NCBI GenBank assembly: GCA_017405965.1
Contig: JAFQZK010000003.1
Location: 62,001 to 126,000 of the forward strand
Reading direction: 5' to 3'
Origin: Muribaculaceae bacterium
Lineage (GTDB): Bacteria; Bacteroidota; Bacteroidia; Bacteroidales; Muribaculaceae
DNA length: 64,000 nt
Shown here piece after piece: positions 12,538 through 24,952 of the stretch (position 1 is the stretch's first letter; each line of letters begins with the position of its first letter). A program made the position numbers and the translations under genes. Below the pieces are notes generated by a model. That model saw only the letters and a program-made list of their open reading frames with translations. It was not told where the DNA came from and searched no databases.

Positions 12538-12612
12538 TTGATGATGGAGACGCGCCCTAAGTGAGCCGATAAGAAATAACGCCAATTATTCAAGAAGTGC
12601 AGATGCCTATAA

Positions 12613-12649
12613 AAAACAACTCCATCACTCATGTTGATGGAGTTGTTTT
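12613..12649. terminator. Bidirectional terminator between cassette and nuclease operon
   Basis: A 15-bp perfect stem (AAAACAACTCCATCA at 12613-12627 with its complement at 12635-12649) gives T-runs on both strands, between two convergent units. Confidence 0.8.
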
Positions 12650-12691
12650 TCTATCAAGACGCCTATATTTCTCTTGAATCTGGGTTTTGGG

Positions 12692-13681
12692 TTATTCCCA
12701 GTCTTGGATGCGGCATTGCTGCTTGGGGATGGCGCTGGAGAAGGTGAGGCCTGTGCGGCGCTCGACCTCGGCGACGGTGACGGCATACTTGCTGATGCCG
12801 CCGGGACAGGGTTTGTTGTCGTAGATGAAGGCGATGGCACGGCCTTGCTCGGGGGCATACACCACCTTGAAGAAAGCGTCGGGCACGGCGATGTTCTGCT
12901 TGTCCTTACCGATGCGCGCGGGATTCTTGCCCATGATAGGGCCGGTATAGACCATCAGTCGCTTGTCGCGCTTGGCCCAGCGGTGCACCTTCTCCTCGAG
13001 CACGCGCCAGTGGTCGTTGTTGAGTTTGGTGTCCTGAGGGCACATGTTGGTCATGTAGAAGCATTGAGTCATCGGGGTCTTGTCCCAGCGCATATCCATA
13101 GCGGGCGCCATGTGGCCACGGCTGTAGCCGCTGCCGCGGTATTCCCAGTTCTCGGGGCATGACTTGACGTTGTTGTCCCGGGCATAGTTGTAGTTCTTGC
13201 GCACCTCGTGGTCGGGTGCGTCGGCCATGGAAACCATTGTCGCCGTCAGTTCATAGGCCACACAGTTGGGGATTCTCAACGACGGGTTGAAGTTCACACG
13301 GATGGCCTGATAGTTCAGCACCTCGTTGGACACGCCTTTGGGAATGCCCACTGCCAGCAGTGCGTTGGCGTTCTGCTGCGGCACCGCAGTCTTGGTTGCC
13401 GTCTTGCCGATGGTGGGGACGCTCACCAGAGGCGAGGCGACTGCGGTTTGTTGTCCCAGTTTATTCTTCTTGCCCGATTTCTTGGAAGATTTCGCCTTTT
13501 TCTTGTCTTTCTTGGCTTGATTCTTCTTCTGTTTTTTGGATTTCTTTTTGCCCTTGGTTTTGCTCTTGGCCTGGGTGCACCACTGGCTGGTGACCTCGTT
13601 GTCGCCCATCACTTGCGGTGGCAGGGCTCCGCCCATAACCATCACTGCTACCAATACCCAAATCGTTGCTATTCGCTTCAT
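12692..13681 (-). CDS. DNA/RNA non-specific endonuclease, exported, last gene of SPFH operon
   Basis: A 329-aa protein with an N-terminal signal sequence (MKRIATIWVLVAVMVMGGAL) and then a very Lys-rich linker (~38-75). The NUC (beta-beta-alpha metal) endonuclease domain lies at ~150-320: YELTATMVS, the motif GYSRGHMAPAMDM with the general-base His, TNMCPQDTKLN carrying the metal-binding Asn, then VYTGPIMG and FFKVVY. The usual DRGH motif is SRGH here. Family members (NucA, EndoG) cut DNA and RNA without sequence preference. The Lys-rich linker could bind nucleic acid or cell-wall polyanions. It lies 63 nt after a paralogous nuclease gene and ends just before the operon terminator. Confidence 0.85.
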   Translation of the reverse strand: MKRIATIWVLVAVMVMGGALPPQVMGDNEVTSQWCTQAKSKTKGKKKSKKQKKNQAKKDKKKAKSSKKSGKKNKLGQQTAVASPLVSVPTIGKTATKTAVPQQNANALLAVGIPKGVSNEVLNYQAIRVNFNPSLRIPNCVAYELTATMVSMADAPDHEVRKNYNYARDNNVKSCPENWEYRGSGYSRGHMAPAMDMRWDKTPMTQCFYMTNMCPQDTKLNNDHWRVLEEKVHRWAKRDKRLMVYTGPIMGKNPARIGKDKQNIAVPDAFFKVVYAPEQGRAIAFIYDNKPCPGGISKYAVTVAEVERRTGLTFSSAIPKQQCRIQDWE

Positions 13682-13744
13682 TTCTTTATATTATTGATCT
13701 CACTAATCACTAACCTCTAAACACTAATCAGCGCCCGTGGCGCA

Positions 13745-14581
13745 TCAATTCAGCCATGCGTCAAGATTCACGGTGCTTTCCAGCCGCTCTTGCTCTTCGC
13801 GAGGCAGGGTGGGGAAGAAGTCCAGCCCAGTCTTGTGTTCCACCTCGTCAACGCTCACAGCATATTGACTCAGTCGTCCTCCGCTGTGGCCGTTGGGGTA
13901 GATGAAGGCGATGGCACGCATCGGTCTGACGCACGGTGCCATGATGATCTTGTAGTAGGCTCTCGGCACCGTCACCTGACTGTTTGCCAATGTCGTGTCG
14001 CTCTCGCTGACGACAGGTCCGGTGAACACCAGCAATGCACTGTCGCGTGCCGTCCACTCACGCACTTTCTCCTCGAGCTTGGCCCAACCGCCCTCGTTCA
14101 AGGCCTTGTGCATCGGGCAGATGTTGGTCATCAAGAACGACTGCCGCATGGCTGTCTCGCTCCACTTCAGGTCGCCTGCAGGCACCAGATGCCCACGGTC
14201 CATCCCGCTTCCGGCGTAGTCTTGCGGCGACGGGCATCCCTTCACGTCTGGGTCAGGCATAAACTCGCCCATGCGCTCGGCTGTTCCGTTCAGTTCGTTT
14301 GTAACAAGCTCATAAACAGCGCAGTTGGCGATGCCCCTCGCGCTGTTGAAGTACACGTCAAACGCGTCGCGTCTAACCAGTGTGTCGCTCATGCCACGGG
14401 GAATGCCGACGGTCATCAGGCTGTCGCGCCCGCCCTCGCTCAAGGGCACCAGATGTTGAGCATGGTTGTTCACGATGACGCGATACAGCAAAAAGCATAC
14501 CAACGCCACCGTCAAGCCCCACAAGAAGAACCTGACTGTGTCGCCCCATCGCTGCCACAACTGCTCAACACGCTTTTTCAT
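13745..14581 (-). CDS. Membrane-anchored DNA/RNA non-specific endonuclease
   Basis: A 278-aa protein from ATG 14581 (MKKRVEQLWQRWGDTVRFFL); a GTG at 14614 would add 11 residues and overlap the upstream gene. One TM segment (~17-39) anchors the nuclease domain outside the cytoplasm. Key motifs are YELVTNELNG, GSGMDRGHLVPAGDLKW (canonical DRGH with catalytic His), TNICPMHKALNEGGW (metal-ligand Asn), VFTGPVV and YYKIIMAP. It is paralogous to the next nuclease in the operon, but with canonical active-site residues and a TM anchor instead of a cleavable signal. The start lies 7 nt beyond the stop of the preceding module gene, so it is in the same transcript. Confidence 0.85.
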   Translation of the reverse strand: MKKRVEQLWQRWGDTVRFFLWGLTVALVCFLLYRVIVNNHAQHLVPLSEGGRDSLMTVGIPRGMSDTLVRRDAFDVYFNSARGIANCAVYELVTNELNGTAERMGEFMPDPDVKGCPSPQDYAGSGMDRGHLVPAGDLKWSETAMRQSFLMTNICPMHKALNEGGWAKLEEKVREWTARDSALLVFTGPVVSESDTTLANSQVTVPRAYYKIIMAPCVRPMRAIAFIYPNGHSGGRLSQYAVSVDEVEHKTGLDFFPTLPREEQERLESTVNLDAWLN

Positions 14582-14588
14582 TGGTTCG

Positions 14589-15701
14589 TCACTCTGCCCT
14601 GCGGATGAAGCCACGGAAGATGAAATACACGATTGCCAGTACGGCGAACAATCCAGCTATTGCCCAAATTATAATATTACTCTTGTTAATACACGGGAAG
14701 GAAAATAGCAGAACTGCGATGGCAACAACGATGGCGGTCGTGCGACACATGTTAGCAGTCAATTTGACCTGCTTGAGATTGGTCAACGGGCCCATTTCTC
14801 TCATGCTGGCGGGTCTGTGGGTATCCCAGATCAGTTTGAAGATTGGAATGGTTAGAGAGAACTGACCGATCAGTGTTCCGGGATTGAAACTGCCATCATC
14901 AAAGGTGAATAAGCTGTTTTTCACTGCCATCACCCATGCTGTGACAACAATGACGCCAATGAGGATTTCGGCTAAAGTGCTTAAGGTAGTGCGTGGCAAT
15001 TTCACCTCATTGATGTTGAAACCGTTGGTGATTTCGTTCGGCTCGTTGTCGAACTCGTCATCAGAGTTTTGTCGGGCTTGGTAGATGAGATAGCGGAAGA
15101 TAGCGATGGTGATGATAAAAGCAACACCAACAATGAAGATGCATACTATTGAGAAATCCTCCAGAGGCAGGGAACTCACCAGGACGAATAACGCAAATTC
15201 AACGGCAAGCACACGGCACATGCGGACTTCAAGGGCGACCTGTTCCACATTAGTGTGTCTTCTGATTTTTGACTTAAAGCTTGGTAAATACACAATCCAA
15301 GAGAAGATAATAGCCAAGATTGATAGCACAAACATGAGTACGGGGGAAAGGAAAGAGAAGAAACCCTCAATAATCCAAAACCGATCGGAGGCTAAAGCCA
15401 GTATCCATGCACCAACGATAATCAACCCCGTGAGCACCTCATAGATTGTTCCCTCTAGGGTGCGCTGCACTTCGATTGAGCCCACTCCATTACTAGCTTC
15501 TTTCTTTATGCTAAACCGCGATTTTTTGATGAATGCAAGAGCAATGGCCAGTACTCCTGTAATTCCCGCGTAGATGCAACCCATCTGAAGGTCCGAGGTA
15601 TCTATGATTCCCCCTCTATACAACACCATCGTGTAGGTGAAGAAGAGTACTTCGGCAATAACGATGATAAAAAGATAGATATTTCTGTTCAAGTTTTTCA
15701 T
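14589..15701 (-). CDS. Module-family multi-TM protein A (two modules)
   Basis: A 370-aa polytopic membrane protein of an unnamed family. The first ~60 residues hold two TM helices. Module 1 (~70-195) contains VQRTLEGTIYEVLTGLIIV and later VRMCRVLAVEFAL. Module 2 (~205-370) contains FNINEVKLPRTTLSTLAEIL, WDTHRPASM, TNLKQVKLTANMCRTTA and ends FRGFIRRAE. The shared module is a cytoplasmic lead with P/Q-R-T, a TM with a conserved Glu, a second TM pair, an xMxR helix and a final TM. Start ATG 15701; a TTG two codons upstream opens the frame earlier. No transport or enzymatic motif seen. Confidence 0.75.
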   Translation of the reverse strand: MKNLNRNIYLFIIVIAEVLFFTYTMVLYRGGIIDTSDLQMGCIYAGITGVLAIALAFIKKSRFSIKKEASNGVGSIEVQRTLEGTIYEVLTGLIIVGAWILALASDRFWIIEGFFSFLSPVLMFVLSILAIIFSWIVYLPSFKSKIRRHTNVEQVALEVRMCRVLAVEFALFVLVSSLPLEDFSIVCIFIVGVAFIITIAIFRYLIYQARQNSDDEFDNEPNEITNGFNINEVKLPRTTLSTLAEILIGVIVVTAWVMAVKNSLFTFDDGSFNPGTLIGQFSLTIPIFKLIWDTHRPASMREMGPLTNLKQVKLTANMCRTTAIVVAIAVLLFSFPCINKSNIIIWAIAGLFAVLAIVYFIFRGFIRRAE

Positions 15702-15751
15702 AATCAATTCTCTTTAGTGACTAACGTAATCAAAGCATCGCACAGTCGCTT

Positions 15752-16384
15752 TCATTTGTTCCTTTTATGCAAGATTACAAAGAGGAGGTCGGTCCCGAAC
15801 CAAGCAAGGCCAAGGCAAATCAAGATAACCACCATCAAGTGCTTGTTTACAGGACTGACGCTGAGGATTAAGGCCATCAAGGCGGTGACGATCGCGAACA
15901 CTCGTTTTTTTCTGATCAGCAGTTTGAACTGCTCCTCGTTGGTGACGCGCATCGATGACCGGATGGGGATGAAGAACAACGGATGATAGGCAAATATGAG
16001 AGCCGCGATAGCCGCGATGAAGAGAATCACATATTCTTCGAATAAGCCGTTGCTGCCACGTGACTCAAACATGTGGGTGACAAACCCCATGAGCAGCGAG
16101 CCGGCAAGAATCAGGGCTGTTGCTACCTCAAAGATAGTCCCCTCGCGAGTGCGCGGCACCTTTTGATGCGCGAATGCCAGTTCTATTTTATCTTCAGCTC
16201 TTTCTTCTCGTGTCTTGAGTTCGGGGTAGATGACATAGAAAACCAGAGCCAAAAGGCCTACGATAGCTCCAAATAACGATGCGACAAGGTTATCAATCCT
16301 GCCAGCTGCATAGAGTACCAGAATCAAGGCCAATGCTATGACAAGGACTGTGGTTATCAGTTTATTTGTTTTCTTACTGTCCAT
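15752..16384 (-). CDS. Module-family multi-TM protein B (one module)
   Basis: A 210-aa membrane protein. Two N-terminal TM helices (~10-50) are followed by a basic/acidic linker (PELKTREERAEDKIEL) and one copy of the module: FAHQKVPRTREGTIFEVATAL (PRT and Glu conserved), an extended VTHMFESRGSN loop, a TM, YHPLFFIP, EEQFKLLIRKKRVFAIVTAL and a final TM ending LHKRNK. It sits 50 nt upstream of gene A and 36 nt downstream of gene C in one transcript. Function unknown. Confidence 0.75.
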   Translation of the reverse strand: MDSKKTNKLITTVLVIALALILVLYAAGRIDNLVASLFGAIVGLLALVFYVIYPELKTREERAEDKIELAFAHQKVPRTREGTIFEVATALILAGSLLMGFVTHMFESRGSNGLFEEYVILFIAAIAALIFAYHPLFFIPIRSSMRVTNEEQFKLLIRKKRVFAIVTALMALILSVSPVNKHLMVVILICLGLAWFGTDLLFVILHKRNK

Positions 16385-16420
16385 AACTTTCTCATTTTTT
16401 GGTTAATGAATTGCTTGAGG

Positions 16421-17512
16421 TTATTCTTTGTCAGTTTCGGTATCTTTCAACTCATTCCTGATCAAGTTTCGATAGAAGAGATCAATAAAGAGGATAACGG
16501 CGAAGAAATGTTGTGCGATGAAGTCGATCGGCCCGATTGTTCCCTTGTAAGGCTGATACACGACCAGCATGGCTGCCACGGCACATCCGACCGCCAGAAG
16601 GTGATAGAGCTCAATGTTCTTGATGAGCTGACGGCTGTTGGTGAAACTCTCCGACCGGTTCATCCAGCGTGGGCAATAGGTGATGATGAGGGCGATAATG
16701 GCAAGCACTGTGTAGCAGATCATCTGAATGATCGTTAAATCCAAGATGCTCTTTCCCGCTAACTGACGGGTGTGCCAGGCCGCATACCATGAGCCGACGA
16801 GGATGAGGATTGTCACAACCTCGAAGGCAAAGGCAGAAAATGTGTGAGGCACTCTCACCTCGTTGATGTTGAACTTGCTGGCGCCGTTCTGTTGATTGGG
16901 TGCGCCCTTGATGAAGAAACTGAAGATGAGCCGCAAGGCAACGTACAAGATGCAACCGATGAAGGTGAGGTTGCCGGAGCCCTTCCATGGGAGGAACACG
17001 ATGGCTAGTGAAAACAGTGCCAACGCTACCGAGCGCACGCGCAACCGGCGGCTCTTGACGATATCGGCTTCCGTGGCTTTGGGATGAATCTCACCTTCCT
17101 TAGAATCGGGGTAGTAGGCTAACCCGAGCATGCCGCAAACCGTGATAGCAAGAGGAATGATGAAGACATAAAGCACTTTGTCGATTGTCCATGCCTTGTA
17201 GCAAGCAACGGCAAACATGGCGGCAATCACAATCTCGAGGATGGTACTGCCCACCGTTCGCGGCAATTCAACCAAATCATCGGTATTGCTCAGGTCAATG
17301 TCCTCTGTATCTTGTTTGGGAGGCGCCAGTGACGGATACTTCTTGCGGATGATTTGCTTTGCGGCGAAGAAGGCTACAACAACTCCGGCGCATAGTGCCA
17401 GTGCGATTCCACTGCTGATGATGTGCGTTGAGTGAAGCTCCTTGATGATAAGTACGAGGACCAATGATGCCACTCCACGAGCGATATTCACTATTCTGTT
17501 TGTATTATTCAT
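16421..17512 (-). CDS. Module-family multi-TM protein C (two modules)
   Basis: A 363-aa membrane protein. Two N-terminal TMs are followed by module 1 (~75-205: VELPRTVGSTILEIVIAAMF, then KSRRLRVRSVALALF) and module 2 (~215-360: FNINEVRVPHTFSAFAFEVV, YCPRWMNRSESFTNSRQLIK, ELYHLLAVGCAVAAM). The acidic tail ends KDTETDKE. FNINEV before module 2 is identical to the same position of protein A, clear evidence of recent duplication and shuffling. Function unknown. Confidence 0.75.
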   Translation of the reverse strand: MNNTNRIVNIARGVASLVLVLIIKELHSTHIISSGIALALCAGVVVAFFAAKQIIRKKYPSLAPPKQDTEDIDLSNTDDLVELPRTVGSTILEIVIAAMFAVACYKAWTIDKVLYVFIIPLAITVCGMLGLAYYPDSKEGEIHPKATEADIVKSRRLRVRSVALALFSLAIVFLPWKGSGNLTFIGCILYVALRLIFSFFIKGAPNQQNGASKFNINEVRVPHTFSAFAFEVVTILILVGSWYAAWHTRQLAGKSILDLTIIQMICYTVLAIIALIITYCPRWMNRSESFTNSRQLIKNIELYHLLAVGCAVAAMLVVYQPYKGTIGPIDFIAQHFFAVILFIDLFYRNLIRNELKDTETDKE

Positions 17513-17575
17513 AGCTGTATTTTTTTTAGGTTTTTAGGTGAGACTGTTGTTGCCTTTCAAAATGCGAAGGCCGAT

Positions 17576-18205
17576 TCATTTCGCCCTGCGGATGAGGATG
17601 CGGAAGACGATGAACACTACTGCCAGAATCGTGGCCAGCGTTATCCAGATCCAGTTGCGCGGTCGCAGTGAGGGAAAGGAGGATAACAGCATTCCGACGG
17701 TGAGCAGCAAGGCGATCAGGCGATTCATGTGAACGGCGAGAGAGACCTGCTTTAAGTTGGTCAGCTTGCCCACATTATTCATGTCGCCAGGTGTGTAAGT
17801 ATCCCAAAACGTGAAGATGATGGCGGCGGTGAAGAGGATCATGCCGAGCAACGTCTCGAAACTGAAACTGCCGTCGCCCTCGGTGAACAGGCCGTTTTTC
17901 ACCGATAGCGCCCATGCCAGGGCCACAAGGACACCGGTGATGACTTCGATAGATGTCCCGAGTACGGTGCGATGCATCCTCACTTCATCAAGGTTGAACC
18001 CGTTGATGACTTCACGTTTCTCATTGCTGTACTTGAACAGCAGCATGATGGCTGCGAAGTCGCCGATAATTGCAACTACCGCTGCTGTGGCGATGATTCC
18101 CGCTTTTGAAACCCCGGCCCATGCTGCCAGCATCAGGGCGCCGATAAGGATGATCATGAATGCAACACCCAGCAGGTTGAATGCGCGATTACTGTTAAGT
18201 TTCAT
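17576..18205 (-). CDS. Module-family multi-TM protein D (one module)
   Basis: A 209-aa membrane protein. Two N-terminal TMs are followed by one module at ~68-209: FNLDEVRMHRTVLGTSIEVI, KNGLFTEGDGSFSFETLLGM, WDTYTPGDMNNVGKLTNLKQ, LAVHMNRLIALLLTVGMLL, ending FRILIRRAK. It is closest to module 2 of protein A (shared LTNLKQV, WDT.xP, xRRA[EK] end), so A probably arose by adding a module to a D-like protein. Spacing to neighbours is 31 and 63 nt. Confidence 0.75.
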   Translation of the reverse strand: MKLNSNRAFNLLGVAFMIILIGALMLAAWAGVSKAGIIATAAVVAIIGDFAAIMLLFKYSNEKREVINGFNLDEVRMHRTVLGTSIEVITGVLVALAWALSVKNGLFTEGDGSFSFETLLGMILFTAAIIFTFWDTYTPGDMNNVGKLTNLKQVSLAVHMNRLIALLLTVGMLLSSFPSLRPRNWIWITLATILAVVFIVFRILIRRAK

Positions 18206-18236
18206 ATCGTCCCTCCTTTCTGTGACAGGTACAAAA

Positions 18237-19364
18237 TTATTTGGCTTTTTTGCTGAAATGCTTGAAGATGAAATAAGTGCCCAAGAACATGGCCAGTATT
18301 GCGATGATCAAAACGCTGGCCTCAACGATATGGTGCTTAATGCCAATAGCCAAAATCAAGCTGATGCTGGCTAACTCGACGCCATAGACACGGTTCTCCA
18401 GGACGCTCAGACGGAATTGCCTGATGTTCTCAATCTCCTCATCGACTTTGGCAAACTTAACGGCACTGGCAAGCTGGTTAATGGCCGAGAACGCTGTAAG
18501 GAGGATGAATAATAATCTTGTTGAAAAGCGCATGGCGTCAACCTTGATGACATCTAAGGATAGCAACACAAAACACAGTGCCGTCAGGATGATGAAGCCT
18601 GTCACGATGTAAAAGGCGATCTCCACCTTGTCATGGGTGACTTGAATGTTGCTGGAGTCAAAGGCCTTGTCGGTCACTTGACCCGAAGTGGAACCGCTCG
18701 TGCTTTGCGCCGATTTTTTCTTGCGGTTGAAGTAAGCCTCGACAAGAAGAATAGCAAGGATAATTACGAAAAAGTTATCCATGATATCTGCGACGGGCGA
18801 GAGCACTGCCATGATGGCACAGATCAATGCATAGACCTGTTGCTTCTTTACCGAAAGACTGATTAGGCTCATGTCCTTTTGCTTCTCGGCATCGTGCAAC
18901 ATGAACGGGAAACGTGCCCCGATAAGTGCTGCTACCGAACCGATTGTCAAGATAACAGCCCCGCCGATGTGCTCCCAGTCCATCTGGTGCTTGCTCCAGA
19001 ATATGCCCCATGTGACAAGGAGCAGGAGCACGGTCAACGCTTCCATGATAACCTTGGTGGGGGAGTTGTGGACCTTGATATTATAGATATTCACCCGTTG
19101 AGCCGATTCGCTCATGGCTCCTGTGGTGGTCCTGTTCTTGCGCTCTTGCATGATTTCATCCTCGACCTCCACCAGACGGGTGCGATAGGCCCACCAGTAT
19201 AATGCGGCCAGGATAACTGCTGTCGCCACGATAACGGCAGCAGTGCCTGCCGTGCCGAGCTGTTCTGAGAATAAACCCAAAGTGCCGCCGGCAACGATTG
19301 CCGTGCCGTAGGTCAGTACATTCCACAATAATGTCTGCCTCGGATTGTTAAACTTGGGTTTCAT
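18237..19364 (-). CDS. Module-family multi-TM protein E (two modules)
   Basis: A 375-aa protein from ATG 19364 (MKPKFNNPRQTLLWNVLTYG). A frame extended upstream would run through the ribbon-helix-helix gene and is discarded. Two TMs are followed by module 1 (VNIYNIKVHNSPTKVIMEAL, GARFPFMLHDAEKQKDMSLI, VKKQQVYALICAIMAVLS) and module 2 (FDSSNIQVTHDKVEIAFYIV, RQFRLSVLENRVYGVELASI), ending FKHFSKKAK. It is the most divergent member: the PRT motif is lost but the aligned Glu and the late basic helix remain. Its start overlaps the end of the ribbon-helix-helix gene by 17 nt, so the two are translationally coupled. Confidence 0.75.
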   Translation of the reverse strand: MKPKFNNPRQTLLWNVLTYGTAIVAGGTLGLFSEQLGTAGTAAVIVATAVILAALYWWAYRTRLVEVEDEIMQERKNRTTTGAMSESAQRVNIYNIKVHNSPTKVIMEALTVLLLLVTWGIFWSKHQMDWEHIGGAVILTIGSVAALIGARFPFMLHDAEKQKDMSLISLSVKKQQVYALICAIMAVLSPVADIMDNFFVIILAILLVEAYFNRKKKSAQSTSGSTSGQVTDKAFDSSNIQVTHDKVEIAFYIVTGFIILTALCFVLLSLDVIKVDAMRFSTRLLFILLTAFSAINQLASAVKFAKVDEEIENIRQFRLSVLENRVYGVELASISLILAIGIKHHIVEASVLIIAILAMFLGTYFIFKHFSKKAK

Positions 19365-19560
19365 CACTACTGTCCTCCTGGTTATCGGTTTCACTTTTTT
19401 TCTTCTTGGGCAGACGGCGGGCCTTGCGCAGCGCCTCGGTGATGATCCACTGCAACTGACCGTTGGTCGAGCGGAACTCGTCGGCTGCCCACTTCTCAAT
19501 GGCATCCATCGTGTCGCTGTCGACACGCAGGATAAAACTCTTTGTGGCTTTCTTTGCCAT
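19348..19560 (-). CDS. Ribbon-helix-helix (Arc/CopG-like) DNA-binding protein
   Basis: A 70-aa protein. TKSFILRVDSDTMDAIEKWA gives the N-terminal beta-strand and first helix, and STNGQLQWIITEALRKARRL the second helix of the ribbon-helix-helix fold; a basic/acidic tail follows (PKKKKSETDNQEDSSDETQ). Such proteins dimerise and bind short palindromes in the major groove. It is the only regulator in the operon, and a perfect TGATATC-5-GATATCA palindrome lies at the operon promoter (20692-20710). Autoregulation is an inference. No toxin partner of a classical toxin-antitoxin pair is adjacent. Confidence 0.85.
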   Translation of the reverse strand: MAKKATKSFILRVDSDTMDAIEKWAADEFRSTNGQLQWIITEALRKARRLPKKKKSETDNQEDSSDETQV

Positions 19561-19587
19561 AGTCTGCTAAATCTTTATGCGGGTTAT

Positions 19588-19670
19588 TAATGCGAATTTC
19601 GCGAATGGTGCTAATTCTGTGAATTGTTATAAAGTTCGCTAAAACCGTTTAATTCGCGAAATTCGCATTA
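19588..19670. repeat. Palindromic intergenic element, family 2, copy 1
   Basis: A perfect 19-bp inverted repeat (TAATGCGAATTTCGCGAAT at 19588-19606 and its complement at 19652-19670) is followed by GCCCCGCAGGG. It sits between the SPFH and ribbon-helix-helix genes. A degenerate second copy lies at 45976-46098. As RNA it would form a hairpin and could act as an intra-operon attenuator or processing site. Confidence 0.75.
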
Positions 19671-19681
19671 GCCCCGCAGGG

Positions 19682-20650
19682 TTACATATTCAATGTGCCG
19701 GTGTTGACGACGGGCTGGGCCTGTTCGTCGGCACACAGGACAACGAGCAGGTTGCTCACCATCGAGGCCTTCTTGTCGTCGTCAAGCTCCACGATTTCTT
19801 CGCTTGAGAGCTTGTCAAGAGCCATCTTCACCATGCTCACGGCACCCTCGACGATCTTCTCGCGGGCGGTGATGATGGCGCTGGCCTGCTGACGGCGCAG
19901 CATCACGGCTGCGATTTCGGGAGCATAGGCCAGATAGTTGATACGGGCCTCGACTACCTCGATACCGGCCAGCGACAGGCGCTCGTTGAGCCTCTCCTCG
20001 AGTTGCTCGTTGATCTCCTCGCCACCCGAGCGCAGGGTCAGCTCCTTGGTGTTCTCGTCATTGTCGTCGTAGGCATACAAGCCGGCCACCTGCCTCAGGG
20101 CGGCATAGCTCTGCACGCTCACGAAGTCTTCCAGGGCACGCATCAGGCCCTTGGCGTTACCGCTCAGGGTGCCATCGGTCGAGGCCATGGTCTGCGAGTC
20201 CACCTCGAACAGGGCCTTGTAGGTATCCTTCAGTCTCCATACCAGCACCAGGCCGATCATCACGGGGTTACCCACCTTGTCGTTGACCTTGATGGGCTCG
20301 GCGTCCAGGTTGCGGGCACGCAGCGACACTTTCTTGGTGCCATAGAAGGGGTTGATCCAGTAGAAGCCCGTCTTGGTGAACGTGCCACTGTACTTGCCGA
20401 ACCATGTGGTCACCCTGGCCGTGTTGGGCTCAAGCATCAGGAAACCGCCTAATATAAATAAGGTGAGAATGATGAACAGGATGCTCACGATGAGCAGTGC
20501 TGTGGGCTGCCAGCCGTGCTGGGGCTGGTCATACATCATGATGCTCTCATAGATGCCCCATACTGCGAGGATGGGCAGCAGGATGACAACAAACAACATT
20601 AAAAAGCCGTTCAGGGTTGTACCTTTGAAATTGAATTCTTTCGTTTCCAT
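19682..20650 (-). CDS. SPFH/band-7 domain membrane protein, first gene of nine-gene operon
   Basis: A 322-aa protein. Two N-terminal TM helices (~14-33 and ~49-72) are followed by the SPFH core: EPNTARVTTWFGKYSGTFTK (~74-93), GFYWINPFYGTKKVSLR, PIKVNDKVGNPVMIGLVLVW, RLKDTYKALFEVD, then a helical C-terminus (LNERLSLAGIEVVEARINYL, AAVMLRRQQASAIITAREKI). SPFH proteins (stomatin, flotillin, HflK/C) oligomerise into membrane cages and organise other membrane proteins. Downstream are a ribbon-helix-helix protein, five related TM proteins and two nucleases. Its promoter is a TATCTTTG box at 20711-20718 with a palindrome across the start region. Confidence 0.9.
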   Translation of the reverse strand: METKEFNFKGTTLNGFLMLFVVILLPILAVWGIYESIMMYDQPQHGWQPTALLIVSILFIILTLFILGGFLMLEPNTARVTTWFGKYSGTFTKTGFYWINPFYGTKKVSLRARNLDAEPIKVNDKVGNPVMIGLVLVWRLKDTYKALFEVDSQTMASTDGTLSGNAKGLMRALEDFVSVQSYAALRQVAGLYAYDDNDENTKELTLRSGGEEINEQLEERLNERLSLAGIEVVEARINYLAYAPEIAAVMLRRQQASAIITAREKIVEGAVSMVKMALDKLSSEEIVELDDDKKASMVSNLLVVLCADEQAQPVVNTGTLNM

Positions 20651-20691
20651 AATCGTAGAAGTTGAAAAGTTAATATTCAGTTTTATTAAAA

Positions 20692-20718
20692 TGATATCGT
20701 TTTGATATCACAAAGATA
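20692..20718 (-). promoter_or_regulatory. Promoter with palindromic operator for the SPFH operon
   Basis: The minus-strand -7 box TATCTTTG (plus CAAAGATA, 20711-20718) is directly followed by TGATATC-GTTTT-GATATCA (20692-20710), a perfect 7-bp inverted repeat covering the expected transcription start. This suggests repression by a dimeric regulator, possibly the operon's own ribbon-helix-helix protein. Confidence 0.55.
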
Positions 20719-20891
20719 TAGGCATTTTTTGGAACGGCAATGGATATCACCAAATATTTAACACATTTTAACTATTTTCCTTTTATCGATTATTGTTCAG
20801 CCGTCCTAATGTGGAGGCATACGGGCTGAAAAATATGTCTTTCAGTCCCAATTTTTTATTCGTGATTATATGAGGTTTCAATGTTTTTTTT

Positions 20892-20956: not shown

Positions 20957-22933
20957 ATGAGTACAATTACATTCAAATCCCGATTGATGGCCATCCTGGC
21001 CTGTGTGCTGTGTGTCCTTGGCGCCAATGCCTATGATTTCTATGTTGACAGTATCTATTACAACATCACCGGTCCCAACACCGTTGAGGTGACATACAAG
21101 TCTTATAGCACTGCTGATTATTCTGGCAATGTGGTCATCCCGTCAACAGTGACCTATGATAATGTGACATATACGGTCACTGCAATTGGCCGGGCGGCTT
21201 TTATTCATGGCGATGGCTTGATTACGGTCGAGATACCGCAATCGGTCAAATCTATTGGTGAAGATGCATTCCATTATTGCAAAAAGCTGAAATCAGTCAA
21301 TATTCCCGACTCTGTAACAAGAATTGAGGACAATGTCTTTCACGGATGCTGGGCGTTGACTAGGGTGGATATCCCCACCGGTGTCACCTATATTGGCTCC
21401 TACGCCTTCAGTAACAGTGGCCTTGTAGAAATCACTTTCCCGGATAGCCTTACCACAATAGGCGGTAGCGCGTTTCATTGGTGCAACAACCTGAGAAGTG
21501 TTCGCATTCCCAAAAAAGTTTCTAGAATCGGTGCGGCTGCATTCACTGGTTGTGAATACATGACTTATATCGAGGTTGACAGTGAGAATGCCTATTATGA
21601 TTCGCGAGATAACTGTAACGCCATTATTGAAACGGCTACCAATACATTGATTGCAGGTTCTTCACAAACCATCATCCCCTATGGAGTTACTGCGCTTGCC
21701 AATAACGCTTTTACTTATCGCCGTGAGTTGACCCGCATTGATATTCCGAATACGGTAAAGACCATTGGAAACGAAACCTTTGCGTCTTGCTATAATTTGC
21801 GGGAAGTGACTTTGTCCGACTCCTTGGTCAGCATCGGTAATAGTTGCTTTGAGGGCTGCTCTTTTACTTCGCTGATCATGCCCAATTCGGTCATTACAGT
21901 TGGTAGTGACGCTTTCGCTCGTTGTCAATATCTTGTTGACATCACACTCTCTGAAAATCTGAAGACTCTCAATGCCCGTGCATTTTCCGAATGCAAGCGT
22001 TTAAAGGAGATCACGCTGCCTCATAGTCTTGAATACATAGGTCCGGGCCTTTTTGATAAATGTGCACAGCTTCAGAGCTTGGTTATTCCCAGTTCTGTTA
22101 ACAAGATTGCTTCACGAGTCGTAGCCGGATGCGATGCACTCACCAACCTTGTTGTTGAGGAAGAGAATCCTTTCTATGATTCACGCGAGAACTGCAATGC
22201 CATTATCGAGACAGCAGGTAATAAACTCCTCAGCGGTTGTAGCATATCGACCATTCCCAATACAATCGACTCAATTGGTCCCAATGCGTTTCTGTACGTT
22301 AAGAACTTCACCGATTTGAGATTGCCCAACTCAGTGAAATACATAGGTTTTGCTGCATTTAACGCTTGCTATGGTTTGAAGACCGTATCAGGCGGTGATG
22401 GTCTTATTTATATTGATGCAGCGGCTTTTTCGGCTTGTCCCGAACTGACCACTGTCACTTTAGGAAAATCAGTCAAAATAATTGACGCTAGTGCTTTCCA
22501 TGGATGTGGAAAATTAACGACGGTAGTGCTTCAGGATTCGGTCGTAAGTATAGGTAATAGTGCATTCTCAACTTATAACCATAGTGTCTTGGAGTCTTTC
22601 ACCTGTAAGGCTTTGGTGCCTCCTGTCTTGGATGAAGACGTGTTCCATGCCGAAGCGCTGGCCAACGCCACGCTCTATGTGCCGATGCGCACCATGGAGG
22701 ACTACCGCAATGCCGACGGCTGGAAGGACTTCGCCCACATCGAGGGCATCTACCTGCCTGTTGACGCCAACAGCGACGGCCGCATCAACGTGAGCGATAT
22801 CAATGCCATGCTCAATCGCCTGCTCGGCGGCGAGGAGATTACCGATCCCGTCTATGACATGAACTGCGACGGCACGGTCAACGTCACCGACGTGATGATG
22901 ATGATCAACTACATCATGTCCATGACCGAATAG
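20957..22933 (+). CDS. BspA-like leucine-rich-repeat surface protein with dockerin-like C-terminus (1)
   Basis: A 658-aa protein with a signal peptide (residues 1-~25, ending GANA). Residues ~30-75 form an N-terminal beta domain (YNITGPNTVEVTYKSY), and ~75-545 hold about 20 treponemal-type LRRs (pattern L..I.IP.SV..IG..AF..C). A repeated spacer module with YDSRDNCNAIIETA occurs twice (~212 and ~412). Residues ~555-595 hold a linker (VPMRTMEDYRNADGWKDFAH), and ~600-658 two EF-hand-like dockerin segments (DANSDGRINVSDINAMLNRL and DMNCDGTVNVTDVMMMINYI). BspA-type proteins mediate adhesion to host proteins or cells. It is followed 48 nt later by a tandem paralogue. Confidence 0.85.
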   Translation: MSTITFKSRLMAILACVLCVLGANAYDFYVDSIYYNITGPNTVEVTYKSYSTADYSGNVVIPSTVTYDNVTYTVTAIGRAAFIHGDGLITVEIPQSVKSIGEDAFHYCKKLKSVNIPDSVTRIEDNVFHGCWALTRVDIPTGVTYIGSYAFSNSGLVEITFPDSLTTIGGSAFHWCNNLRSVRIPKKVSRIGAAAFTGCEYMTYIEVDSENAYYDSRDNCNAIIETATNTLIAGSSQTIIPYGVTALANNAFTYRRELTRIDIPNTVKTIGNETFASCYNLREVTLSDSLVSIGNSCFEGCSFTSLIMPNSVITVGSDAFARCQYLVDITLSENLKTLNARAFSECKRLKEITLPHSLEYIGPGLFDKCAQLQSLVIPSSVNKIASRVVAGCDALTNLVVEEENPFYDSRENCNAIIETAGNKLLSGCSISTIPNTIDSIGPNAFLYVKNFTDLRLPNSVKYIGFAAFNACYGLKTVSGGDGLIYIDAAAFSACPELTTVTLGKSVKIIDASAFHGCGKLTTVVLQDSVVSIGNSAFSTYNHSVLESFTCKALVPPVLDEDVFHAEALANATLYVPMRTMEDYRNADGWKDFAHIEGIYLPVDANSDGRINVSDINAMLNRLLGGEEITDPVYDMNCDGTVNVTDVMMMINYIMSMTE

Positions 22934-22981
22934 GCCGTTGATGCGTTAACGCTTACATTCAACCCAAATACCTTATAGATT

Positions 22982-24952
22982 ATGAGAACAATTCAATTCA
23001 AATCCCGGTTGTTGGCCATCCTGGCCTGTGTGCTGTGCACCCTCGGCGCCAGCGCCTACAGTTTTTATGTAGACGGTATCTACTATTACATCACCGGCCC
23101 CAACACCGTCGAGGTGACCAACAAGGCTTACAGGCAAGCCAGTTATTCTGGCGACGTGGTTGTCCCGCCGACGGTGACCTATAATGATGTGACCTATACA
23201 GTGACCGCCATCGGTGATGATGCATTTTATTGGAGCACTTCAATGACAAGCATCCAGTTGCCCAACACAATCAAGATCATCCATTATTGTGCATTTGACA
23301 ACTGCAGTGGTCTTACTGAAATCGTAATTCCTGACTCAGTTACTATTATTGAGCATTCGGCTTTCAATGGATGTGATAATTTGACTAGTGTCACATTGCC
23401 CGAAGGTCTGCTTAGAATAGGTGATAATGCTTTCTGTAACTGTGAATTCACGAGTATCACTTTGCCCGAAAGCCTCACCTACCTTGGCGCTGAAGTCTTC
23501 TGGTGGTGTATCAAGCTGAAAAGTATCCGCATACCCAAAAATGTCACCCACATTGGCAAAGCTCTACTGATGGGCTGCGAATACCTTTCTTATATTGATG
23601 TAGACAGCGAGAACCCGGTTTATGATTCACGTGACAGCTGCAATGCCATTATTGAAACGGCAACCAACAAGTTAATTGCCGGATCGTCCTTAACGGTTAT
23701 CCCCGAGGGTATTACCGAGATTGGAGAGGGTGCATTCACCTATCGTAGAGAGTTGGAGAGCATCCATATCCCTAACTCGGTCAAGTATATCCGTAATGAG
23801 GCTTTCCGTTCATGCTATCGTTTGGCGGATGTGAACATCCCTGATTCACTTCTCACTATCGGGAATCAGGCCTTCCAAGGCTGTAAAATGACAAGTGTTG
23901 TCATGCCCAATACTGTCACCTCCATGGGTTACCAGGCTTTCCAGGACTGCTCAAGTCTGGAAACCGTCGTGCTTTCCGAGAACTTGACGTCTATCCCTGG
24001 TGATGCCTTCCGTTCGTGCGCAAAGTTAAAAGATGTCATCATTCCCAGATCAGTCACTTATATCGGTTATGGCGCATTTGAGTGGTGTAGAAGTATAAAG
24101 AGTATGCTTATTCCTAATACAGTGACCAATATAAGCCGATGTGTTTTCATTTGGGATAACTACATGACAGAGTTAGTCGTGGAAGAAGGGAACCCGGTTT
24201 ATGATTCACGAGACAACTGTAATGCCATTATAGAGACAGCCACAAACAAACTGATTAACGGGCTTTCTTGCAGCGTGATTCCCAACTCGGTTGATACAAT
24301 CGGAGAGCAAGCGTTTTATGTCTGCCAGGATATGTACAGCATTGATATTCCCAATTCAGTGAAATACATCGAACGAATGGCTTTTGATGCTTGTTTTGAT
24401 TTGGAAACAGTGAACTTCGGTGATTCGCTTGATTGCATTGAGGAATATGCGTTTGGCCAATGCAGCCAACTGAAAGATGTTACGTTTGGTAGATTGCTAA
24501 GGACCTTGATGAATAATGCCTTCAGCCATTGCAGCGGACTCGAGACAATAACCTTGCAAGACTCAGTCAAGTTTATTGGTAAAAATGCATTTTCAAGTAG
24601 TAAATTGTTGACCTCGGTGACGTGCAAGGCTCTGACGCCTCCTGAGATGGGTGAAAGCGTGTTCCATGCCGATGCGCTGGCCAACGCCACGCTCTATGTG
24701 CCGATGCGCACCATCGAGGACTACCGCAATGCCGACGGATGGAAGGACTTCGCCCAAATCGAGGGCATCTACCTGCCTGTTGACGCCAACGCTGACGGCC
24801 GCATCAACGTGAGCGACATCAATGCCATGCTCAATCTTATGCTCGGCGGCGAAGAGATTACCGATCCCGTCTACGACATGAACTGCGACGGCACGGTCAA
24901 CGTCACCGACGTGATGATGATGATCAACTACATCATGTCCATGACCGAGTGA
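22982..24952 (+). CDS. BspA-like leucine-rich-repeat surface protein with dockerin-like C-terminus (2)
   Basis: A 656-aa tandem paralogue of the preceding gene with the same order: signal peptide (ending GASA), beta domain, about 20 BspA-type LRRs with two YDSRD[SN]CNAIIETATNKL modules (~206 and ~406), linker, and two dockerin-like EF-hand segments (DANADGRINVSDINAMLNLM, DMNCDGTVNVTDVMMMINYI). The first ~35 codons and the last ~95 codons are almost identical to gene 1 at DNA level, while the LRR part has diverged, a pattern of gene conversion or selection on the ends. Probably the same transcript (48-nt gap, no terminator). Confidence 0.85.
   Translation: MRTIQFKSRLLAILACVLCTLGASAYSFYVDGIYYYITGPNTVEVTNKAYRQASYSGDVVVPPTVTYNDVTYTVTAIGDDAFYWSTSMTSIQLPNTIKIIHYCAFDNCSGLTEIVIPDSVTIIEHSAFNGCDNLTSVTLPEGLLRIGDNAFCNCEFTSITLPESLTYLGAEVFWWCIKLKSIRIPKNVTHIGKALLMGCEYLSYIDVDSENPVYDSRDSCNAIIETATNKLIAGSSLTVIPEGITEIGEGAFTYRRELESIHIPNSVKYIRNEAFRSCYRLADVNIPDSLLTIGNQAFQGCKMTSVVMPNTVTSMGYQAFQDCSSLETVVLSENLTSIPGDAFRSCAKLKDVIIPRSVTYIGYGAFEWCRSIKSMLIPNTVTNISRCVFIWDNYMTELVVEEGNPVYDSRDNCNAIIETATNKLINGLSCSVIPNSVDTIGEQAFYVCQDMYSIDIPNSVKYIERMAFDACFDLETVNFGDSLDCIEEYAFGQCSQLKDVTFGRLLRTLMNNAFSHCSGLETITLQDSVKFIGKNAFSSSKLLTSVTCKALTPPEMGESVFHADALANATLYVPMRTIEDYRNADGWKDFAQIEGIYLPVDANADGRINVSDINAMLNLMLGGEEITDPVYDMNCDGTVNVTDVMMMINYIMSMTE

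Follow-up and report, generated by a model that had tools for sequence, protein, structure and literature searches.

A 64,000-nucleotide (nt) stretch of a Muribaculaceae genome (contig JAFQZK010000003.1, positions 62,001 to 126,000, G000:C21:62001-126000 in our numbering), here called the window, carries a nine-gene operon on its minus strand. It begins with a membrane-scaffold gene of the SPFH superfamily and a gene for an Arc-type ribbon-helix-helix (RHH) protein, followed by genes for five transmembrane proteins (TM1 to TM5) and two Endonuclease_NS nucleases (NUC1 and NUC2). The operon is real, and its parts differ in history. With a probability of about 55%, we read it as an autoregulated envelope-stress operon, built around the SPFH scaffold, that recruited an older operon of envelope-side nucleases. 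The unit formed by SPFH, RHH and their operator is a more general and more interesting find than the link to the nucleases, which is a recruitment at the level of the lineage.

The original prediction had described nine minus-strand genes in one operon, and order, strand and gaps all agree with the open reading frame positions when ATG starts are chosen. Taken in gene order, SPFH and RHH are 121 nt apart, RHH and TM1 overlap by 17 nt, and the remaining gaps measure 31, 63, 36, 50, 7 and 63 nt. A search for the same order in relatives, proposed along with that description, found that it recurs, so the arrangement is not due to chance. The window belongs to a genome of 3.6 Mb in 40 contigs. Its nearest named loci come from uncultured Bacteroidales labelled by their submitters as Prevotellaceae (L087, SPFH 90%), Muribaculaceae (L088, 90%) and Porphyromonadaceae (L092, 84%); named loci are throughout the best 80 of 590 candidates from a scan with an SPFH alignment.

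A conserved SPFH-RHH pair

The SPFH protein (19682..20650, minus strand, 322 amino acids (aa)) matches Pfam Band_7 at 3.6e-19, with 69.9 bits against a cut-off of 23.6, which together with the alignment places it in the SPFH superfamily. Hydropathy gives it two hydrophobic helices at the N terminus, a count also made for its relatives, and no PDB chain was matched by its profile at E 0.01. As a single sequence, the RHH protein (19348..19560, minus strand, 70 aa) has weak Pfam matches below the cut-offs (RHH_5 0.0049, Arc 0.022). The profile of its family, built from 30 sequences, matches Arc repressor structures at E 1.1e-7 to 0.012 (engineered pArc 1.1e-7; 1arq 7.8e-4). Its AlphaFold2 (AF2) model is weak (mean predicted local distance difference test score (pLDDT) 66, predicted template modelling score (pTM) 0.30) and shows two helices with no strand assigned.

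The two genes keep close company. RHH lies 3' of SPFH, on the same strand and within about 2.1 kb, in 65 of the 80 named Bacteroidales loci, and among the 15 loci lacking it some contigs stop at or shortly past SPFH (L133, L101). Within the genus it follows in all 44 loci whose SPFH gene is uncut by a contig end. Fourteen of 28 SPFH-matching plasmid records were examined, Vibrio records being left out, and RHH follows SPFH in nine of them: Prevotella nigrescens, Parabacteroides distasonis (where it is annotated as an Arc family DNA-binding protein), two Deinococcus, Qipengyuania, Bosea, Nonomuraea, Acetoanaerobium and Rhizobium. No RHH turned up behind SPFH in the other five (two further Deinococcus, two Pseudomonas, Teredinibacter). 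Outside Bacteroidota the arrangement is present in 7 of 12 examined loci. By gene order and family assignment, SPFH and an Arc-type RHH are thus a conserved pair and the core of the operon. Literature searches found no paper describing the SPFH-RHH-operator unit; ribbon-helix-helix is mentioned in PMC8656257 only in a reference about VirC2, and neither 'ribbon-helix' nor 'nuclease' occurs in the available portion of PMC13086221.

Other genes may stand between the two. In L052 (7143-9061) and L117 (3688-5696), Pfam shows a CPBP/Rce1-like protease gene between SPFH and RHH, together with a gene for another membrane protein (DUF3784 in L052), and gene sizes point to the same layout in L134 and L155. 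Four more loci (L107, L108, L112, L140) have there an alpha/beta hydrolase of 418-457 aa with DUF3887, which in L140 scores just under the cut-off. Such proteases and hydrolases suggest that the operon carries exchangeable cargo. One genome (G021) has two SPFH contigs (L051, L050): the gene runs off the contig end in one and is broken across two frames in the other.

A predicted tandem operator at the promoter

The SPFH gene is preceded by TATATCTTTG (20711..20720, minus strand), which fits TAnnTTTG, a motif that we take to be the Bacteroidota-type -7 promoter element and that all 46 genus rows have within 160 nt 5' of SPFH. Directly behind it follows the tandem pattern TGATATCA-NNN-TGATATCA. 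In the window (full version TGATATCAAAACGATATCA) the pattern takes the form TGATATCA-AAA-CGATATCA (20692..20710, minus strand) and would be the RHH site, located at the predicted transcription start and conserved 5' of SPFH where RHH is present. When the 260 nt preceding SPFH are searched for GATATC-N5-GATATC and up to 2 of its 12 defined positions may mismatch, a box is present in 73 of 78 loci with RHH, compared with 4 of 18 without (Fisher p 1.2e-9, uncorrected for relatedness) and 49 of 1920 random 290-bp stretches of the same loci. For two of the four boxed loci lacking RHH (L050, L133), the contig stops at SPFH.

In its exact form, GATATCN5GATATC is found a single time in the 3.6 Mb of the window's own genome, at SPFH, and is confined to SPFH in seven relatives (G002, G006, G018, G019, G020, G021 with its two SPFH contigs, and G024). 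Plasmids behave alike: seven of the nine loci with RHH have a box at no more than two mismatches, exact in Acetoanaerobium at 161 nt upstream, and the best box in the five loci without RHH has 4 to 6 mismatches, no better than shuffled sequences. This distribution is the pattern expected from a local autorepressor, and the RHH protein probably represses its own operon through tandem TGATATCA boxes at the transcription start. In Segatella copri (L126/L127) two successive GATATC-type tandem boxes lie 5' of SPFH, so there may be two operators.

Divergent DUF1648 modules in the membrane proteins

The five membrane proteins are paralogous (TM5 versus TM2, E 1e-42) and together hold eight copies of one four-helix module, recognised by a hidden Markov model: two in TM1 (18237..19364, 375 aa), one in TM2 (17576..18205, 209 aa), two in TM3 (16421..17512, 363 aa), one in TM4 (15752..16384, 210 aa) and two in TM5 (14589..15701, 370 aa), all on the minus strand. 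No Pfam family scores above its cut-off in these proteins. An iterated module profile finds single-module proteins adjoining SPFH-RHH in Prevotella, Segatella copri, Bacteroides, Phocaeicola and unclassified Bacteroidaceae, the weakest at 5e-5 (L100) and 8e-4 (L104). Several of the homologs match PF07853, above the cut-off in L099 (2.7e-10), L096 (1.5e-9) and L100 (1.3e-7 and 1.7e-7) and below it in L116 (1.1e-5) and L104 (4.8e-4); no PF07853 score was obtained for L126, the L108-type L110 or L107, whose protein lacks any Pfam match at 1e-5. The profile of the window-type module aligns with that of seven DUF1648-type homologs over 145 columns (hhalign 98.1%, E 7.8e-14). Six of these seven were scanned for PF07853, four scoring above the cut-off and two below, and the seventh comes from L107. 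By this profile comparison the modules are a divergent branch of the DUF1648 family, which SdpI also carries.

In 41 genomes TM5 gave 18 matches, spread over 9 genomes and all at SPFH loci. Nine of the 44 genus loci have no module, and the maximum of eight is reached in the window, G084, G096 and G103. One genome (G091) retains RHH and both nucleases and has no intact module, with NUC1 coming 327 nt after RHH. The AF2 model of TM2 (mean pLDDT 82, pTM 0.74) shows six helices, namely two plus the four-helix module. A known transporter fold was considered and set aside, as the model had no PDB or viral match at E <= 0.001; against PDB sequences the module profile reached 0.0092 with cytochrome c oxidase polypeptide 4 and a weaker value with its like.

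A hairpin between SPFH and RHH

The palindromic element that had been reported in the 121-nt gap is indeed there, as a perfect 19-nt inverted repeat (19588..19670, minus strand; arms 19588-19606 and 19652-19670). Of the genus loci with modules or nucleases behind RHH, 30 of 36 have a perfect inverted repeat (arms of at least 11 nt) between SPFH and RHH, and none of the 8 with SPFH-RHH alone does. Loci lacking downstream genes have shorter gaps (38-87 nt), so a hairpin is less likely to fall in them. Other gaps, bounded by homology matches and hence partly coding, rarely contain such a repeat (module-module 0/53, RHH-module 0/35, module-NUC1 0/23, NUC1-NUC2 1/43, NUC2-NUC3 3/18, pepT-SPFH 2/15), and elsewhere in Bacteroidales the SPFH-RHH gap has one in 4 of 41 loci.

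Sorted by eye, the hairpins represent about seven families of unrelated sequence (14, 12, 4, 2, 2, 1 and 1 loci), and they differ between G092 and G081, whose SPFH genes are sisters. The window hairpin is a dispersed repeat, ATTCGCGAAATTCGCATTA, found at 12 places of its genome with up to 2 mismatches, compared with none for the reversed control. Either the site attracts such repeats or selection keeps a hairpin there. Since the element is dispersed and the hairpins of relatives are unrelated, the palindrome was rejected as an operator. An intrinsic terminator was rejected as well, because most of the hairpins have no T run behind them as judged by eye.

Nucleases from a probably older cluster

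Both nucleases match Pfam Endonuclease_NS, NUC1 (13745..14581, minus strand) at 2.8e-47 and NUC2 (12692..13681, minus strand) at 2.5e-48, and both keep the RGH motif of the family, as DRGH in NUC1 and, as in EXOG, SRGH in NUC2. NUC1 matches EXOG, NucA-type and Serratia nuclease structures, and NUC2 those of EndoG, EXOG and Serratia nuclease. They had been proposed to be anchored or exported, which their N termini bear out: hydropathy gives NUC1 one hydrophobic helix, probably a membrane anchor, and NUC2, which also has a Lys-rich stretch, begins with a signal-like sequence. Behind NUC2 a 16-nt inverted repeat with a T run (12612..12650, minus strand) is a probable terminator. One promoter at the start and one terminator at the end had been predicted; the TAnnTTTG at 20720-20711 agrees with the former, while the repeat, seen in the sequence and in the inverted-repeat search, was omitted by the terminator scan.

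How closely the nucleases are tied to SPFH was followed in 101 genomes of the genus, of which 44 have an SPFH match and 38 a NUC1 ortholog (at least 67% identity). In 29 of these 38 the two genes share a strand and NUC1 follows SPFH after 634-6797 nt. It stands apart from SPFH in six (G019, G020, G052, G053, G082, G110), and in three SPFH is unmatched (G007, G017, G023); conversely, 15 of the 44 SPFH genomes have no adjacent NUC1. Among the 80 named loci a nuclease is visible in one (L087), some stretches being covered for a short length.

The surroundings of the pair point to a separate origin. The marker genes here are pepT and mnmE, assigned by NCBIfam, and a third Endonuclease_NS protein is called NUC3. 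In G007, G017, G015 and G013, NUC1-NUC2 lies 132-274 nt from pepT with no SPFH cassette between them, and NUC3-mnmE comes next in G017 and G015. Distant NUC1 relatives (46-53%) also sit by pepT or mnmE in G005, G010, G012, G013 and G015, though neither gene borders them in the parts of G008 and G048 that were covered. On the strength of these cassette-free sites and distant relatives, we take the nucleases to belong to an older cluster of pepT and NUC1-NUC2-NUC3-mnmE. With the cassette present, pepT borders SPFH in 20 distinct loci, at 241-303 nt in 15 and at 1.9-4.4 kb in five including the window. Two genes for BspA-type leucine-rich-repeat (LRR) proteins with dockerin domains occupy this space in the window (20957-24952), where 15 of the 20 distinct pepT-side loci have pepT directly. 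A degraded NUC1 relic in three pieces lies directly behind TM2 in the SPFH-RHH-module locus of G020 (L046 6974-7136), and an intact NUC1-NUC2 pair is found on another contig.

A TAnnTTTG motif stands within 40 nt of NUC1 in five of six pepT-side sites lacking the cassette, compared with 2 of 29 distinct sites having it (31 cassette-filled sites, minus RUG379, the same as G081, and G020, a NUC3 match). This motif count suggests that at most cassette loci, and in the window as well, the nucleases rely on transcription from upstream. With a TM5-NUC1 gap of 7 nt, a separate nuclease promoter in the window would have to lie inside TM5.

An envelope-stress reading and its alternatives

We propose that the Arc-type RHH recognises the tandem TGATATCA boxes at the transcription start and thereby holds down transcription of the operon that encodes it. 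SPFH would form a membrane scaffold with its SPFH domain facing the cytoplasm, and the DUF1648-type modules would be its membrane clients or sensors. Damage to the inner membrane, for instance by antimicrobial peptides, might cause scaffold and modules to draw the RHH protein to the membrane, so that the operon opens, a release we liken to the sequestering of SdpR by SdpI. A hairpin after SPFH would give this gene an output differing from that of the genes behind it. As the cassette lies between pepT and the older NUC1-NUC2(-NUC3-mnmE) cluster, two envelope-side nucleases would be made along with it, and these probably clear or scavenge DNA or RNA at the envelope during stress. We favour stress as the signal by analogy with Bacillus subtilis: SdpI sequesters SdpR at the membrane (PMC1626106, available portion), and the available portions of PMC8144471 and PMC3498285 describe the SPFH protein FloA (sublancin) and the SdpI paralog YfhL (SdpC) as protecting the cell from toxic peptides within the sigma-W response.

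A number of observations weigh against the proposal. The exact operator pattern is missing in G008, G009 and G022 despite an SPFH gene (inexact boxes occur there), G011 has it once near a contig end (G011:C45:170-186) with no SPFH match, and it is present at five places away from SPFH matches in four genomes of other orders (G029, G031, G032 twice, G039); the reversed control pattern also matched once each in G009, G010, G030 and G040. Five of the 78 RHH loci were scored as having no box, although L136 shows one by eye, and on plasmids the Bosea box has 3 mismatches and that of Rhizobium 4, no better than shuffles, even though two TGATATC copies are visible. SdpR is an ArsR-family repressor and not of the RHH type. 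The window modules have no PF07853 match up to E 1 and, in the alignment, no P.HF..G loop of DUF1648. TAnnTTTG was found near NUC1 in just 6 of 15 cassette-free nuclease sites overall, so its absence is no proof of promoter loss. Finally, the joining of cassette and nucleases is undated because both trees are poorly resolved (the SPFH tree leaves out short-SPFH rows and three named duplicates, and the other includes the false G020 row, a NUC3 match), and with such weak trees a single cassette insertion is unproven.

The strongest competitor, though a rather improbable one, is an operon for immunity to peptides or bacteriocins, with modules acting as SdpI-type immunity proteins whose number is set by an arms race and nucleases riding as passengers on the same promoter. 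The DUF1648 relationship, the variation from no intact module to eight across the genus, the CPBP/Rce1-like protease genes between SPFH and RHH in L052 and L117, and the accessible parts of the SdpI/YfhL and FloA literature would all suit it, but the window family has lost the extracytoplasmic DUF1648 loop and no toxin gene was seen in the operon. We consider it unlikely that SPFH and the modules form a complex that puts both nucleases in place at the envelope to serve uptake or degradation of DNA, or defence, the role first suggested for this operon. The short gaps in the window and the 29 of 38 genus genomes with NUC1 behind SPFH speak for such a coupling, which is common in the genus. Yet the nuclease pair also occurs in genomes with no SPFH match, away from SPFH and the modules, and as 46-53% relatives, several of them by pepT or mnmE, so that a dedicated nuclease system is not supported. 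SPFH-RHH in turn lacks an adjacent NUC1 in 15 of 44 genus SPFH genomes, the stretches covered of 79 of the 80 named loci show no nuclease, and G091, which still has RHH and both nucleases, lacks an intact module. Nucleases or SPFH usually apart from the modules had been named as the outcome that would count against the suggestion; this is what is seen outside the subclade, and inside it is not.

Least probable of all, and very unlikely, is that RHH is an antitoxin-like or structural partner of SPFH and that another protein reads the TGATATCA boxes. One RHH homolog is annotated as a HicB-family antitoxin, but the boxes accompany RHH across loci and, in the window's own genome and seven relatives, no exact box exists outside the SPFH promoter. 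The autoregulated stress operon that we prefer can also be extended, as a tentative idea of clearly lower probability, to an undescribed membrane-integrity switch spanning phyla. Here the scaffold, with DUF1648-type modules, would under stress retain at the membrane the repressor of its own operon. Different lineages would insert interchangeable effector cassettes (module arrays, CPBP proteases, hydrolases, in this case nucleases) into the same operon, and unrelated palindromes would time and again take the place of the SPFH/RHH hairpin so that output ratios are preserved.

Relation to known systems

The closest parallels for an SPFH protein in a small operon with membrane partners are the SPFH-NfeD operons (QmcA/YbbK-YbbJ; FloA and FloT of B. 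subtilis). In the available portions of the sources, FloA and FloT are envelope-stress genes (PMC2636767, PMC8144471), and NfeD is the operon partner in the better-known SPFH subfamilies (PMC2636767). The present operon is of another type, in that no NfeD family is among the matches of its nine proteins up to E 1, and the partner is instead an Arc-type RHH with its own predicted operator, accompanied by DUF1648-type modules and nucleases. The SdpR-SdpI operon likewise unites an autorepressor and a polytopic membrane protein (PMC1626106, in the portion available), whereas here the predicted repressor is an RHH protein, an SPFH gene heads the operon and the modules lack the canonical DUF1648 loop. 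Pfam gave no toxin gene, of the SdpC type or other, among the nine; the operon is not a member of that system, and the likeness would be one of working principle only.

With Arc/MetJ-type repressors the operon shares the RHH family and tandem short palindromic boxes 11 bp apart, for which MetJ is the comparison, but here RHH sits with a membrane-scaffold gene and has one exact site in its own genome. The nucleases resemble Serratia nuclease, NucA and EXOG/EndoG in family match and DRGH/SRGH motif (the EXOG chain has SRGH), and are set apart by the anchor or export signal at their N terminus and by their place in this operon.

The roles of many bacterial SPFH proteins are still open, and in the available portion of a 2009 survey seven of 12 SPFH subfamilies (6-12) have no documented member (PMC2636767). 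A predicted dedicated Arc-type repressor with one recognisable operator, found in several phyla, offers a direct handle: it predicts how the scaffold is controlled, and the inducing stress could be found by a reporter for one promoter. The genus moreover offers a case of an older nuclease operon apparently placed under such control, and of a hairpin whose position is kept while its sequence is exchanged.

Neighbouring genes

Nothing found ties the operon to phage defence, and the defence role once suggested for it is not supported: PADLOC matched none of the nine operon proteins (E 0.1) and none of ten neighbours (E 1e-5), thus 0 of 19, which also speaks against a nuclease machinery for defence. 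Three of the ten neighbours have no Pfam match at 1e-5; the other seven are a permease, a DUF218 protein, a BspA-type LRR protein with dockerin, an M20 peptidase, a CotH protein with dockerin, an NAD(P)H-hydrate dehydratase and a BrkB protein.

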